Assembly (NCBI GenBank): GCA_007693505.1 | Contig: REDL01000064.1 | Span: 62,001-126,000 of the forward strand | Source of the DNA: Desulfovibrionales bacterium | GTDB taxonomy: Bacteria; Desulfobacterota; Desulfovibrionia; Desulfovibrionales; Desulfonatronaceae | DNA length: 64,000 nucleotides | Direction: 5' to 3' | Part shown: piece after piece, positions 44,981-64,000 of the stretch | Layout of the letters: each line of letters starts with the position of its first letter | Position numbering within the stretch: position 1 is the stretch's first letter | The notes under the pieces: model-generated | What the model was told of the DNA's origin: nothing | The model's database searches: none | What the model saw: only the letters and a program-made list of their open reading frames with translations | Program-made: the position numbers and the translations under genes

Positions 44981-46489
44981 TTGACTACTGAGCAAAGCCA
45001 GAGCCGAAGCCAACTCCAAAAGCAGCGTCTGGAGAAATTCACGCAGCTTCAGGATTCCGGGGTGGCCCTCTACCCCAACGATTTTCGCAAAAATGCCGAA
45101 CTGGGCCAGATCAAGGTCGCATACGGCGGCCACGATGAATCGGCGTTGGAAGTCCTGGAAAAGTCATTTGCCGTGGCTGGACGGGTGATGAGCCAACGCT
45201 CGTTCGGCAAGGCCGCCTTTTTTCACCTCCAGGACGCCACGGACCAGATGCAGGTTTTTGTCCAGCGTGATGCCATTGGGGCGGAAAGCTACGCTCTGTT
45301 CAAAAAATACGACATCGGCGACATCGTGGGTGTCACCGGACGCCTGTTCCGGACCAAAACAGGAGAGCTGACCGTCAAGGCCGAAAGTGTGTGCCTGGTC
45401 AGCAAGGCCTTGCGGCCTCTGCCAGAGAAGTATCACGGACTGAAGGACGTGGAGGTTCGGTACCGGCAACGGTATGTGGACCTGATGGTCAATCCACGGA
45501 CACGGGAGATTTTTCATCGCCGAACCCAGGTCGTACGCTTTCTGCGTTCCTTTCTGGACAAAGAGGGGTTCATGGAAGTGGAGACGCCGATGATGCAGCC
45601 CATCCCCGGGGGAGCCACGGCCCGGCCCTTCGTCACCCACCACAAGGCACTGGACATGCGTCTTTTCTTGCGTATCGCCCCGGAATTGTACCTGAAACGG
45701 CTGCTCGTGGGCGGCTTCGAGCGGGTCTATGAGATCAACCGAAATTTTCGCAACGAGGGGATTTCCACCCAGCATAACCCGGAATTCACCATGCTGGAAT
45801 TCTACTGGGCCTATGCCGACTACCAGGATCTGATGGATCTGACCGAACGGATGTTTGCCGATCTGGCTCGGGATGTTTTGGGAAGCGAGGTGGTTCCGTA
45901 TCAGGGCGAGCTGATCAATCTGGGCGGCTCTTGGCAGCGGCTTACTTTTTACGAATCCCTGGAGTCCCTGGGCGGTCTGCGTCCGGAACAATACCAGGAC
46001 TACACCGAAGCCAGAAACCTGGTGCTCAAGCTGGGTGAAAAAGCGCATACCGAGGAAAAGCTCGGCAAGCTCCAGGCCAAGCTGTTCGATCTGCTGGTGG
46101 AGCCAAAGCTGATCCAACCTCATTTTATCTATCACTACCCCACGGATATTTCCCCACTTTCCCGACGCAACGATGCAGACCCCCAGGTAACGGACCGTTT
46201 TGAGCTGTTTATCGCCGGACGAGAAATGGCGAATGCCTTTTCCGAGCTGAATGACCCCTTGGATCAACGTGGCCGTTTCGAAGACCAGGTCAGGGAAAAA
46301 GAGGCCGGTGATGAAGAAGCCCATTTCATGGACGAGGACTACATTCGCGCCCTGGAGTACGGTATGCCTCCGGCGGCAGGTCAGGGCGTGGGCATTGACC
46401 GGCTGGTGATGCTGCTCACGGACAGCCCCTCGATCCGTGAAGTCATATTGTTTCCGTTGTTGCGTCCTGAGGCCAACCCGACCCCATGA
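44981..46489 (+). CDS. lysS: Lysyl-tRNA synthetase, class II
   Basis: Charges tRNA-Lys. 502 residues: an N-terminal OB-fold anticodon-binding domain (RVMSQRSFGKAAFFHLQD), then the class II core with motif 1 (around RSFLDKEGFMEVETPMMQP), motif 2 (FERVYEINRNFRNEGIS) and motif 3 (GQGVGIDRLVMLLT). The start is TTG 44981 with AAGGA seven bases ahead; the only nearby ATG (44960) hits a stop after two codons. It overlaps lolC by four bases (ATGA), tying it to the outer-membrane lipoprotein genes. Confidence 0.96.
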   Translation: MTTEQSQSRSQLQKQRLEKFTQLQDSGVALYPNDFRKNAELGQIKVAYGGHDESALEVLEKSFAVAGRVMSQRSFGKAAFFHLQDATDQMQVFVQRDAIGAESYALFKKYDIGDIVGVTGRLFRTKTGELTVKAESVCLVSKALRPLPEKYHGLKDVEVRYRQRYVDLMVNPRTREIFHRRTQVVRFLRSFLDKEGFMEVETPMMQPIPGGATARPFVTHHKALDMRLFLRIAPELYLKRLLVGGFERVYEINRNFRNEGISTQHNPEFTMLEFYWAYADYQDLMDLTERMFADLARDVLGSEVVPYQGELINLGGSWQRLTFYESLESLGGLRPEQYQDYTEARNLVLKLGEKAHTEEKLGKLQAKLFDLLVEPKLIQPHFIYHYPTDISPLSRRNDADPQVTDRFELFIAGREMANAFSELNDPLDQRGRFEDQVREKEAGDEEAHFMDEDYIRALEYGMPPAAGQGVGIDRLVMLLTDSPSIREVILFPLLRPEANPTP

Positions 46490-47715
46490 GGTTCGAGCGG
46501 TTCATCGCCCTGCGTTACCTCCTGACCAGGGGCAGTCACGCGTTCATTTCGGTCATTTCCTGGGTTTCCGTGCTCGGCGTTGCTTTGGGCGTGGCGGCAC
46601 TGATCGTCGTCCTAGGGGTGATGAACGGGTTCAGCAGCGAGCTGCGGGACAAAATTCTCGGCGTCAACGCCCATATTGTTGTCACCAGCCTGGAAGGCGT
46701 CATCCGGGACTACGACCACCTGACCGAACAAGCCCGCGGCGTCGCCGGGGTACTTGGGGCCATGCCTTTTGTGTACTCCGAGGTGATGCTCAGCACGGAC
46801 TTGGGGGTCAAGGGCGTCGTGTTGCGTGGCATTGATCCGGAGGACTCCCGTGACGTCATTGCCCTGTCCCGGGACATGATCATGGGCAGCGCCTCGGATC
46901 TCCACGACGATGCAACCGGCCGGGGCATTTTCGTCGGGTCGGAATTGGCCGGTCGCCTCGGGCTGCGGGTCGGCTCTGAAGTGAACCTGCTCTCGCCGGC
47001 CGGGCAACGATCCGCCGCCGGCTTTTCCCCCAGTGTTCAAACCTTTGTGGTTCGTGGCGTATTTCGGACCGGGATGTTCGAATACGACTCGTCCCTGGCC
47101 TATGTGACCATTCCTGCTGCACAGTCCGTGCTCGGGTTTCGAGGCGATTTGGTCAGCGGCTTGGAAATCCGCCTGCGTAATCCGGATGCCGCGCCGCAGG
47201 TCGCCGAGGAGCTGGAGCGTGTTTTGGGTGGATTTCCATTCCAGGTTCGCACCTGGATGGAAATGAACCAGAATCTGTTTGCCGCCTTGAAGTTGGAAAA
47301 AGCGGCGATGTTCGTGATTCTGGTGATGATCGTCCTGGTCGGATCCTTCAGTATCATCACCACCCTGGTGATGCTGGTCATGGAGAAGACCAGGGATATC
47401 GCCATTCTGGCCTCCATGGGGGCAGGGCCGAAGCGGATCGCCCGGATATTTATCTTTCTGGGGACGACTATCGGGGCCATGGGGACAGGATTGGGTTTTG
47501 CCATCGGCCTGCTGCTCAGTTTTCTGCTCCAGCGTTACCAGTTCATTCAGTTGCCCATGGACGTCTACTACCTGGATCATTTGCCCGTGCAACTGCAATG
47601 GACGGATTTGACCATCATTGCCCTGGCCGCCATGGTTATGTGTTTTCTGGCAACCCTTTATCCGGCCCACAAGGCGTCCCGGTTGCAACCCGCCGAGGCT
47701 CTGCGGTATGAATGA
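46486..47715 (+). CDS. lolC: Lipoprotein-releasing ABC transporter permease LolC/LolE
   Basis: Inner-membrane subunit of the LolCDE complex that extracts lipoproteins destined for the outer membrane. 409 residues. One N-terminal membrane segment (~20-45) is followed by a large periplasmic domain (~50-265) and three C-terminal membrane segments. Typical motifs are RYLLTRGSHAFISVISWVSVLGVALGVAAL and GVMNGFSSELRDKILGVNAHI. Only one permease gene is present, so the complex may use a homodimer or a hybrid LolF-type permease. It overlaps lolD by eight bases. Confidence 0.93.
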   Translation: MRFERFIALRYLLTRGSHAFISVISWVSVLGVALGVAALIVVLGVMNGFSSELRDKILGVNAHIVVTSLEGVIRDYDHLTEQARGVAGVLGAMPFVYSEVMLSTDLGVKGVVLRGIDPEDSRDVIALSRDMIMGSASDLHDDATGRGIFVGSELAGRLGLRVGSEVNLLSPAGQRSAAGFSPSVQTFVVRGVFRTGMFEYDSSLAYVTIPAAQSVLGFRGDLVSGLEIRLRNPDAAPQVAEELERVLGGFPFQVRTWMEMNQNLFAALKLEKAAMFVILVMIVLVGSFSIITTLVMLVMEKTRDIAILASMGAGPKRIARIFIFLGTTIGAMGTGLGFAIGLLLSFLLQRYQFIQLPMDVYYLDHLPVQLQWTDLTIIALAAMVMCFLATLYPAHKASRLQPAEALRYE

Positions 47716-48391
47716 GCAGTTTTTGCTTGACGTGCGCCAACTCAGTAAGGAAGTTCACAGCGCGGCGGAGCGCCTGGTCATCCTGAAACGCATCGAATTC
47801 ACTCTGGGTTCCGGTGAAACCGCGGCCATTATTGGTGCATCGGGTTCTGGAAAGTCCACGTTGTTGCATATCCTCGGGACGCTGGACCAACCAACTTCCG
47901 GGATGGTTTTTTTTTCCGGACGGGACATGGCTACCTTAAGCCGAGCTGAGAAAGACCGACTCCGCGGCGAAAGCATTGGTTTCGTCTTTCAGTTTCACCA
48001 CCTGCTTCCGGAGTTTACCACGCTGGAAAATGTTGCCATGCCGGGGCTGATTGCCGGACGATCCCACGCCTGGGCTCGACAAGAAGCCGCCTCTGTCCTG
48101 GAAATGGTCGGCTTGGCTGATCGTGGACGGCACCGGGTGACAACCCTTTCCGGAGGAGAGCGCCAAAGGGCGGCCATTGCCCGAGCCCTGCTGCTCAGGC
48201 CCAGGTTGATCCTCGCGGATGAGCCAACTGGAAACCTGGACGAGGAGGCTGGTGAGGTCGTAGGGCGGTTATTGCTGGAACTGAATCAAACCTTGGGAAC
48301 AAGCTTGGTCGTGGTGACCCATAATCGAGATCTGGCCCAAGCCATGCGCTACCGGTACGAGCTACGTGGCGGTGAACTGTTTTCCCTGTAA
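47708..48391 (+). CDS. lolD: Lipoprotein-releasing ABC transporter ATPase LolD
   Basis: ATPase of the LolCDE machine. 227 residues: Walker [16 protein letters not shown] (residues ~39-53), ABC signature [17 protein letters not shown], Walker [13 protein letters not shown] and an H-loop VVVTHN. ATG 47708 overlaps the end of lolC, and the upstream part of the open frame is only lolC in another frame. The dispersed repeat begins seven bases after its stop. Confidence 0.95.
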
Positions 48392-48397
48392 CTGAGT

Positions 48398-48535
48398 GTT
48401 GAATAAGTCCTTATCCGCAGACCGTTCAAAAAAACCAAGTGCAAGGAGCAAGAAAAGTTCAAGGTCGAAGCGTAGTTATTCATACGTGAGAGTTTGAACT
48501 TTTTGCAGCGACTTAGCAATTGGGATTTTTTCAAC
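48398..48535 (+). repeat. Dispersed ~138-bp repeat, copy A (MITE-like)
   Basis: Fills most of the gap between lolD and bamA. It is closely similar, over its whole length, to the reverse complement of 63848-63984; blocks such as CCGTTCAAAAAA, CCAAGTGCAA and GAGAGTTTGAACTTTTTGCAG are identical or nearly so. The ends form an imperfect terminal inverted repeat (GTTGAATAAGTCC against GTTGAAAAAATCC). An internal stem pairs GCAAGAAAAGTTCAA with TTGAACTTTTTGC. No coding capacity. Similarity continues a few bases past each end. Confidence 0.85.
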
Positions 48536-48572
48536 GGACTGGTAACCCCGGCATTGCTGTGAGGCACTGTTT

Positions 48573-51293
48573 ATGACTCCCAAATCCCCTTTGTGTTCAC
48601 TAACGTCAATTGCTGCGGGACCGATGTTTTTCCTTGTCCTGTTCGTGGTCGCCGTGTGCTCTACGGCCTGGCTGGGGCTCCCGGTCCAGGCTGCTGCCCA
48701 GACCGGACAGCCCGCAAAACTCATTGTTTTGCCGTTTGAAATCAATGCCGCTCCCGACCTCGAGCATCTTCAGGAAGGCCTTCCCGAGCTGCTGCGGGAG
48801 CGTCTGCGGGCCAATGGATTCGAGGTGCATCCAGGTGAGCAGACCTTGCAGTTGCTGCGCGCCCAGGAACTCACGGAGCTGGATTTGGCCTCGGCCCGGG
48901 ATATGGCGCTGCTCTCCGCATCCGGCCACAGTATCTACGGCAGTTTCAACCAGGTCGGAGAAAGCATCAGCTTGGATGTACGGCTCGTAGAGGCTTTTGG
49001 CCTGCGCCCGGCACGATCGTTTTTTGTGGTTCGCGAGGGAGTGATCAATTTGTTGCCGGCAGTGGACGAGCTTGCCGAACGTATTACCCGCGAACTGCGC
49101 CAGGTGGAAACCATCGCTGAAATTCTGGTGGAAGGGAACCAAACCCTGGGTTCGGACGTGGTTCTGCTACGCATTCGCAGCCAGCCGGGGGATATCTATG
49201 ATCCTCAAGTGGTCAATGAAGACATTCGGCGACTTTTCGAGCTGGGCTTTTTCGATGACATCACGGTCCGGGTCGAAGATGGCCCGGATGGCAAACTGCT
49301 GACCTTCGAGGTCAGCGAGCGTCCCCGGATTCAGGCCATTAGCGTGATCGGGGCCAGGGAGATCAGGGAAGCGGATATTCTCAAGGCCATTACCACCCGC
49401 ACCGGAGGCATCATCAACCCTCGAATTCTGGCCGACGACCTGGGCAAGATCCGGGAACTGTATCGTCAGAAGGGGTATTATCTGGCCCAGGTGGAGTACA
49501 ACCTGGAGCAAACCGATCCCCGCCAAGCCCGGCTGAACATTGTCATTGATGAAGGCAATCGGCTGTTCATTCGGGAGATCGTCATCGAGGGCGCCGAATC
49601 ATTGAGCGAACGGGAACTGCGGGGGGAACTGGTACTTGGTGAGCGGGGATTATTCTCCTGGCTGACAGGACGTGGGGTGCTCCGTGAAGAACTGTTGGAG
49701 CGGGATGCTGCGGCATTGGAAGCCTACTATGCCAACCGTGGTTTTCTGGATGCCCGGGTCGGACAGCCGGATGTGGAATTCCTGGAAGAGGGCATCCGGA
49801 TCACCTTCCGGGTAGATGAAGGACCTCGGTACAGAATCGGAGCCATCTCCTTCCGCGGCGACCTGTTGGAGCCGGAGGAGGAGCTGTTGAAATTGATCAG
49901 CATGGACGACCTGCAGGCCCGGGAGGCGTATTTTGATCGCTCGGTGCTGCGTCGGGATCTGCAGAACCTGGCTGACCATTACACCGAATTCGGCTACGCC
50001 TTTGCCCAAAGCGACGCCCAGCTGAACATCGAGCGGGACGACCTGGTGGTGGACGTGGTCTTCATTCTGGACAAGGGCTCGCTGGTTTATATCCGCCGTG
50101 TTTTGATCGAGGGCAATACCAAGACCCGGGACAACGTCATCCGTCGGGAAATGCGCCTGGGGGACGGCGATCTGTTCAGCGGCTCTCAGCTGACCCGGTC
50201 CAACGAGCGGCTCATTCGGCTGGACTTTTTTGAACTGGTGGACATTGAAACCCTGGCCACGCCTGATCCCAGTGAGTTGGATCTTAAGGTCACGGTCAAG
50301 GAAAAGCCCACGGGTATGATCAGTGCCGGAGTAGGGTATTCCAGCCTGGACAAGGCGTTCGTCTCTGGTATGGTCCAGGAACGCAACCTCTTCGGACGCG
50401 GCTATGACCTGGCCTTGCGGGGCACACTCAGCGGCCGCAGCACGCTGTACGACCTGAGCCTGACCAACCCCTCCTGGCGAGATTCTCCCCTGGGCGTGGG
50501 CATGGATCTCTATTTCAGGGAGCGCGACTACCGGGACTACGAACGAGAATCCGTGGGTGGACGCTTTCGATTGTCCTATCCCCTCGGTGAATACACCCGG
50601 GCATTCTGGAACTATCGCCTGGAACGCTATACCATCTCGGACGTCAAGGAAAACGCCGCCCAGAGAATTCAGGATGCGGAAGGCACCAACTGGGCCAGCT
50701 CCACGTACCTTGCGGCAAGTCGGGATACCACGGACAGGAGATTCAACCCCTCCCGGGGAACGGTGAATACTCTTTCCGTGCAGTATTCCGGAGGCCTGCT
50801 CCAGGGCGATGACCATTTCATCAAAACCATTTACGATTCCCGTTTCTACTATCCGCTATTCTGGGATACGGTCTTTCACTGGCGGGGGCAGGTGGGCTTT
50901 TTGTTCGACAACGACGGAAAGGAAGCACCTGTTTTTGAACGTTTCTACCTTGGCGGCATCGACAGCGTTCGCGGGTATCCTGGATGGGAGATATCTCCAC
51001 GGGATCCAGACACCGGGGACCGGATCGGAGGCACGAAACAGTTTTTTACCAACTTCGAATACCTGTTCCCCTTGAACAAGGATATGGGGCTGGTCGGATT
51101 GGTCTTTTTCGATGCGGGAAATGTCTGGGATCACGGCGATACGTTTGGATCAAAGCTGTTCAAGAGCGTGGGCACCGGCGTGCGTTGGTACTCGCCTCTG
51201 GGGCCGTTGCGCCTGGAGTACGGGTATGGATTGGATCGTCTGGAAGGCGAACGCCGCAGCGGGGTGGAGTTCTCCATCGGACAGGTGTTCTAA
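48573..51293 (+). CDS. bamA: Outer-membrane assembly factor BamA with extra N-terminal domain
   Basis: Omp85 protein that folds and inserts beta-barrel proteins into the outer membrane. 906 residues against ~800 for E. coli. An N-terminal signal sequence (to about residue 42, ending ...VQAAAQ) is followed by ~130 residues not found in E. coli BamA (LIVLPFEINAAPDLEHL through LAERITREL), which resemble the CsgG/TolB-N type alpha-beta domains. POTRA repeats begin near residue 180 (ILVEGNQTLGSDVV) and run to about 570. The barrel ends with GVEFSIGQVF and a terminal Phe, the outer-membrane C-signal. The barrel contains the VRGYPG motif of the L6 loop. A dispersed repeat lies directly upstream; skp follows. 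Confidence 0.95.
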   Translation: MTPKSPLCSLTSIAAGPMFFLVLFVVAVCSTAWLGLPVQAAAQTGQPAKLIVLPFEINAAPDLEHLQEGLPELLRERLRANGFEVHPGEQTLQLLRAQELTELDLASARDMALLSASGHSIYGSFNQVGESISLDVRLVEAFGLRPARSFFVVREGVINLLPAVDELAERITRELRQVETIAEILVEGNQTLGSDVVLLRIRSQPGDIYDPQVVNEDIRRLFELGFFDDITVRVEDGPDGKLLTFEVSERPRIQAISVIGAREIREADILKAITTRTGGIINPRILADDLGKIRELYRQKGYYLAQVEYNLEQTDPRQARLNIVIDEGNRLFIREIVIEGAESLSERELRGELVLGERGLFSWLTGRGVLREELLERDAAALEAYYANRGFLDARVGQPDVEFLEEGIRITFRVDEGPRYRIGAISFRGDLLEPEEELLKLISMDDLQAREAYFDRSVLRRDLQNLADHYTEFGYAFAQSDAQLNIERDDLVVDVVFILDKGSLVYIRRVLIEGNTKTRDNVIRREMRLGDGDLFSGSQLTRSNERLIRLDFFELVDIETLATPDPSELDLKVTVKEKPTGMISAGVGYSSLDKAFVSGMVQERNLFGRGYDLALRGTLSGRSTLYDLSLTNPSWRDSPLGVGMDLYFRERDYRDYERESVGGRFRLSYPLGEYTRAFWNYRLERYTISDVKENAAQRIQDAEGTNWASSTYLAASRDTTDRRFNPSRGTVNTLSVQYSGGLLQGDDHFIKTIYDSRFYYPLFWDTVFHWRGQVGFLFDNDGKEAPVFERFYLGGIDSVRGYPGWEISPRDPDTGDRIGGTKQFFTNFEYLFPLNKDMGLVGLVFFDAGNVWDHGDTFGSKLFKSVGTGVRWYSPLGPLRLEYGYGLDRLEGERRSGVEFSIGQVF

Positions 51294-63826: not shown

Positions 63827-63847
63827 AAACATGCTCCTTGGCAGTTC

Positions 63848-63984
63848 GTTGTAAAACTCCCAATTACTGCGTGACTGCAAAAAGTTCAAACTCTCATGTA
63901 TGAGTAAAAACGCTTCGACATTGAGCTTTTTTGCTCATTGCACTTGGTTTTTTGAACGGACTGCCGGATAAGAACTTTTTCAAC
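63848..63984 (-). repeat. Dispersed ~137-bp repeat, copy B (MITE-like)
   Basis: Inverted copy of 48398-48535. It lies immediately 5' of rpe, its inner end 22 bases before the start codon. Terminal inverted repeat ends read GTTGAAAAAGTTC at one side and GTTGTAAAACTC at the other. The internal TTGAACTTTTTGC block is conserved. Relative to the downstream gene it has the same orientation as copy A has to bamA. Confidence 0.85.
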
Positions 63985-64000
63985 ACGCAGTTAGTGCGGC

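Follow-up and report, generated by a model that had tools for sequence, protein, structure and literature searches.

Among the closest described systems are the Correia element of Neisseria and ERIC, short dispersed palindromic MITEs that are found in transcripts. RNase processing sites are documented for both, and cleavage by RNase III is documented for the hairpins that Correia elements form in mRNA (PMC10969869). The Chunjie MITE of Geobacter uraniireducens (Chen et al. 2008) is intergenic according to PMC10969869, with dozens of copies that differ in length and many partial ones besides, and one copy is reported to lie within an operon, the structure of which is undisturbed. Here, a repeat located between the outer-membrane biogenesis genes lolD and bamA was analysed in a 64-kb stretch of DNA (the window, meaning the whole stretch), in the home genome and in relatives. 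The repeat is very probably a non-autonomous DDE-type MITE that occurs in Desulfonatronum and in further families of its order, here inserted at the GTAA that ends lolD. It resembles the Correia element and ERIC in being a short dispersed palindrome in transcribed surroundings but differs from them in host, sequence, ends and target, and its hairpin is a predicted one. With Chunjie, compared by description only, it shares the many intergenic copies alongside partial ones and the insertion into a presumed operon without disruption, whereas the length of 178-235 bp given for Chunjie differs from the 150 bp found here. A literature search on the end sequence of the element gave nothing relevant. 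We regard the repeat as a new MITE family of an ordinary kind, with a hairpin that is unusually well preserved across species, a modular interior and no parent found in the transposase families searched. In Desulfonatronum and related sulfate reducers, the family accounts for a large class of intergenic repeats, and its exact ends and targets are now available for annotation.

Limits of the element and its gene neighbourhood

Pfam assigned the neighbouring genes to lysS, lolC, lolD, bamA, skp/ompH and lpxD, the frames of which overlap or nearly adjoin; judging from this spacing, the lysS-lolCD-bamA-skp-lpxD series presumably forms one operon. A preliminary description made from the letters of the window had placed a repeat with terminal inverted repeats and an internal stem at 48398-48535. 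The sequence, the repeats and the stem were all found as described there, and the limits were moved slightly outward to 48392-48541 (150 bp), the terminal CTGAG..GGACTG having been overlooked together with the 4-bp GTAA target-site duplication that flanks the element (Table 1). The terminal inverted repeats have the consensus CTGAGTGTTGAAAAAGTCC and CAGTCCGTTGAAAAACTCC, the first six bases being imperfect.

Since the first GTAA copy includes the lolD stop codon (TAA, 48389-48391), lolD was left intact. The gene bamA retained its own ribosome-binding site downstream of the element, and the GAGG leader was kept in all lolD-bamA sites compared. Insertion on the GTAA ending lolD would have restored the lolD stop codon without touching the leader of bamA, so that the gene series would continue through the inserted element.

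Table 1. Coordinates of the element, its parts and the neighbouring features in the window.
Feature	Position	Strand	Remarks
lolC/lolE-type permease (MacB_PCD + FtsX)	46486..47715	+	Pfam
lolD ABC ATPase	47618..48391	+	mechanical ORF, with 47702 as the probable true start
Target-site duplication, copy 1, GTAA	48388..48391	+	matches the GTAA at 48542-48545 exactly; the empty sites of G004 and G007 have a single GTAA
MITE, basic (A) form, 150 bp	48392..48541	+	10 mismatches against the family consensus
Left terminal inverted repeat CTGAGTGTTGAATAAGTCC	48392..48410	+	family consensus CTGAGTGTTGAAAAAGTCC
Internal long imperfect hairpin	48418..48541	+	~125 nt; fold prediction and covariation in 45 copies
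Hairpin 5' arm CAGACCGTTCAAAAAAACC	48418-48436	+	base-pairs with the element's right end
Right terminal inverted repeat GGATTTTTTCAACGGACTG, doubling as hairpin 3' arm	48523..48541	+	
Target-site duplication, copy 2, GTAA	48542..48545	+	
bamA ribosome-binding site (GAGG) and ATG start, 3' of the element	48561..48575	+	same leader in empty-site relatives
bamA (POTRA repeats + Omp85)	48573..51293	+	Pfam
Second MITE copy, 149 bp	63842..63990	-	between the stop codon of the upstream ORF and the ribosome-binding site of an rpe-like gene

Copies in the window, the home genome and related genomes

The second copy that had been noticed within the same 64 kb was located upstream of a ribulose-phosphate 3-epimerase-like ORF, the rpe-like gene of Table 1; its target-site duplication is imperfect, as the flanks read CTAA and CCAA. 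The 23-mer core of the element, searched with up to 3 mismatches, occurred 2 times in the window against 0.00 expected from shuffles. The copy count also bore out the expectation of many copies genome-wide: the home genome (G000; 3.94 Mb in 136 contigs) gave 53 blastn matches to the element and 48 matches to a core 19-mer, compared with 0 for a reversed-pattern control, and ~55 elements with both ends, in addition to fragments, were recovered among the fetched loci (the underlying list has 56 rows, one element being counted on both strands). The elements have no coding capacity. The basic form measures 150-152 bp, longer forms extend mostly to ~290 bp, and there is no transposase inside.

All seven congeners searched carry the element. 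Among other families of the order it is patchily distributed, with 19 of 41 genomes positive, and the same element was found there with target-site duplications; across the phylum it is rare, being carried by 6 of 395 genomes including the home genome. Plasmid sequences gave no match to the element, and IMG/VR no exact match to its core.

Target sites and recent movement

Perfect 4-bp duplications flanked 20 copies in the home genome (mean 2.1 and maximum 8 when left and right flanks were paired at random) and 18 of 36 copies in the complete genome of the congener G006 (mean 1.9, maximum 8), and these fractions are conservative because the flank lists behind them held some antisense readings of the palindrome that were later removed. 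Among the G006 copies first fetched, 16 of 20 had a perfect duplication. The duplication was never longer than 4 bp and has a central TA, which describes an NTAR-like (N-T-A-R) target. Against the MITE reading it can be held that many copies in the home genome have no perfect duplication, so that some of them could have arisen by recombination; such a state is what is expected of old copies. Ten identical 151-bp copies in G006 indicate recent movement in that genome.

A long conserved hairpin at one end, many copies and the failure to find a resident DDE parent would also suit a single-strand element of the REP/RAYT or IS200/IS605 type, in which a Y1 (HUH) transposase moves the hairpin. This origin is highly improbable, given the clear 4-bp target duplications and the terminal inverted repeats at both ends, features that HUH Y1 elements are not known to make.

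Stop codons of ORFs were overlapped by 15 of 53 targets in the home genome, as against 90 of 1362 nearby NTAN sites (Fisher P = 2e-6), and in G006 by 5 of 22 targets as against 49 of 794 such sites (P = 0.01). The enrichment at stop codons is suggestive only, because the ORFs are mechanical; part of it comes from the loss of insertions within genes through purging. By landing on stop codons, the MITE can sit in an essential outer-membrane operon without breaking genes.

Occupancy of the lolD-bamA site

The site between lolD and bamA is filled at the same GTAA in two congeners (G002 and G006) and empty in five (G001, G003, G004, G005 and G007); in G004 and G007 the empty site reads ...CCTTGTAACC...ATG, with the element absent. 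A conserved leader acting in cis on bamA (riboswitch, attenuator or ribosomal-protein-like leader) would be compatible with the position directly upstream of bamA, with the strong predicted fold and with the retention of the sequence at this position in the sister species G002. As the primary nature of the repeat, however, a leader is refuted by the empty sites, and we consider it exceedingly improbable: neither the five congeners nor any of the other families examined have the sequence at bamA, it adjoins dozens of unrelated genes, and no Rfam family was matched at the gathering threshold, a permissive scan giving only a chance-level miRNA match. Dispersed copies, target-site duplications and the existence of both empty and filled lolD-bamA sites argue for a MITE instead. 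The preliminary description had read the repeat as a non-autonomous mobile element and had named two findings that would speak against this; the repeat is neither limited to two copies nor conserved at the same place in distant species, and with its many dispersed copies, precise duplications and empty sites in relatives that reading holds.

In a BamA tree the home genome and G002 are sisters (94% BamA identity), and the element is kept at the site in both, while G006 groups with the empty-site congeners G004 and G007. The disagreement between tree and occupancy points either to an old insertion followed by precise losses or to two insertions at one site. The MITEs of G006 (L233) and G002 (L230) occupy an identical lolD GTAA in non-sister lineages, which may represent repeated insertion there or precise loss in G004 and G007.

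Internal hairpin and modular interior

In an alignment of 45 copies, the internal hairpin spans approximately position 27 to the right end, so that the right terminal repeat also serves as the 3' arm of the hairpin. RNAalifold predicted 34 pairs; on the same alignment from which this structure was predicted, 96% of cells pair and double changes occur in 16 of the 34 pairs, although template switching can mimic such compensatory changes. None of 500 shuffles, which ignore the relatedness of the copies, reached any of the measures, and in slid versions pairing dropped to 22-47%. The same test detected no covariation in the pairing of the outer repeats. Judged from this alignment, the predicted internal hairpin is preserved by compensatory changes, unlike the outer-end pairing.

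Imperfect palindromes are known to mutate by template-switch correction, and the covariation could be mutational in origin, quasi-palindromes being corrected without any selection on structure. The fact that the arms change in blocks in some subfamilies is in favour of this origin. It is nevertheless doubtful, if possible, since correction should erase mismatches and yet a C-C mismatch of the stem is retained in 42 of the 45 copies and the internal loops are conserved; moreover, the outer repeats are a quasi-palindrome as well and have no covariation. The hairpin is presumably kept because its fold, at the RNA or the DNA level, contributes to survival of the element, and the simplest benefit would be that insertion into operons is made tolerable or that an RNase III-type site is provided.

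The interior of the element is modular, the same ends surrounding different hairpins in other copies: an extra module of ~78 bp, TCCGGCAC...GTGCCGGA hairpins, or both. The TCCGGCAC...GTGCCGGA hairpins, of ~68 bp, take the place of the interior, wholly or in part, at L066, L065, L081, L086, L090-L097 and L104-L106, and may be nested mobile hairpins in their own right. Elements from distant Desulfobacterota keep the frame around an unrelated interior; three of them (L266, L268 and L270) share the frame GCAAGGCG...GCAACGCAGC...TTTTTCAACAGCCTG with unrelated hairpin arms, suggesting by their sequences a phylum-wide superfamily.

A further idea, put forward tentatively and in our estimate somewhat unlikely, is that the hairpin and not only the ends forms the selected core of the element. 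The ends would then be constant and the stem-loop, preserved through compensatory changes, swappable for unrelated hairpins, acting either in the transposition of an orphan element that has no matching transposase resident in its genome or at the RNA level, where it would make insertions at stop codons in operons harmless. A preserved yet swappable hairpin, combined with recent amplification in a complete genome in which no parent was detected, makes the family a testable case for element survival.

Search for a parent transposase

The MITE would be mobilised in trans by a DDE transposase. A parent insertion sequence (IS) would be expected to carry the ends GTTGAAAAA. Within the transposase families searched, neither the home genome nor the complete genome of G006 yielded an autonomous element with the ends of the MITE, despite the ten identical copies in the latter. 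The comparison with resident IS ends covered IS701-type (PF13546) and IS1182/IS5-type (PF13751, PF05598 and PF01609) transposases, the search in G006 being confined to PF01609, PF13546 and PF05598, and none had matching ends; PF13751 and PF05598 had no match in the home genome, and PF05598 had none in G006. Lone ends in G006 were considered as ends of a long IS, but the ones inspected came from MITEs, from truncated copies or from nested ones.

An ISAs1-family IS with a DruA-like N-terminus, resident in contig 55 of the home genome and in G002, was rejected as parent because its own ends, CAGGG...CGTCAAAGT, differ. In G002 a MITE-like end ~80 bp from the ISAs1 transposase is a separate relic. 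The copy in the home genome (L205, C55:3215-5076) has the DruA-like region upstream and seems to be interrupted by a frameshift or stop codon; its contig terminates at the IS end.

In the relative G012, three copies of an IS1182-family IS were found (L271, L276 and L279) with the target-site duplications TTAA, TCAA and CTAA, the end GAGCCTGTTGTAAAACTCG and a transposase matching NF033551 at 326 bits. They resemble the MITE in the 4-bp duplication and in the terminal GAGCCTGTTGTAAAAC, which is similar to CAGTCCGTTGAAAAAC of the MITE, and differ from it at ~5 of 19 end positions, with no internal similarity seen; an IS of this type was not found in the home genome. As this is the sole IS found to combine the same 4-bp NYAA duplication with similar ends, and that in a relative, the IS1182 family is the best candidate type for the mobilising transposase, at what we judge from the sequences to be about an even chance, and the link is to be taken as a lead and not as proof.

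Possible effect on bamA expression

A sequence scan of the element at lolD-bamA detected no consensus promoter and no intrinsic terminator. The hairpin predicted for the transcript is very stable (-50.5 kcal/mol, z = -4.7), so an RNase III-type processing site in the lolD-bamA transcript is possible. One step further, the MITE might have turned functional, its hairpin acting in the lolD-bamA mRNA as a site of processing or insulation through which bamA levels are uncoupled from lolD. The predicted stability, the retention of the element in the home genome and G002, its presence at the same GTAA in the second lineage G006 and the documented RNase III cleavage of Correia hairpins in mRNA (PMC10969869) would all be consistent with such a role. 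Still, it appears unlikely, since the congeners G004 and G007 of the G006 clade do without the element; and because sites at stop codons are generally enriched as targets, the shared position need not mean selection.

Other repeats in the home genome

Another MITE-like repeat, GGTCACTGCAAAAAGTCCC...CTGCAGTAACATCA, was observed in the home genome at L053:1368-1389, L064, L069, L078 and L104. In G004, a DUF772/IS1182-type transposase element (L273/L278: ...GGACTTTTTGCAGTAACA) has an end that resembles the end of this second repeat, and from this resemblance the element is a plausible parent of it. At the end of contig C80 (L055:1462-1485), a CRISPR-repeat-like sequence, CCCCACACACACGGGGACGAACCG, abuts the right half of a MITE without the left half, and a second, diverged CRISPR-repeat-like repeat lies ~870 bp away.
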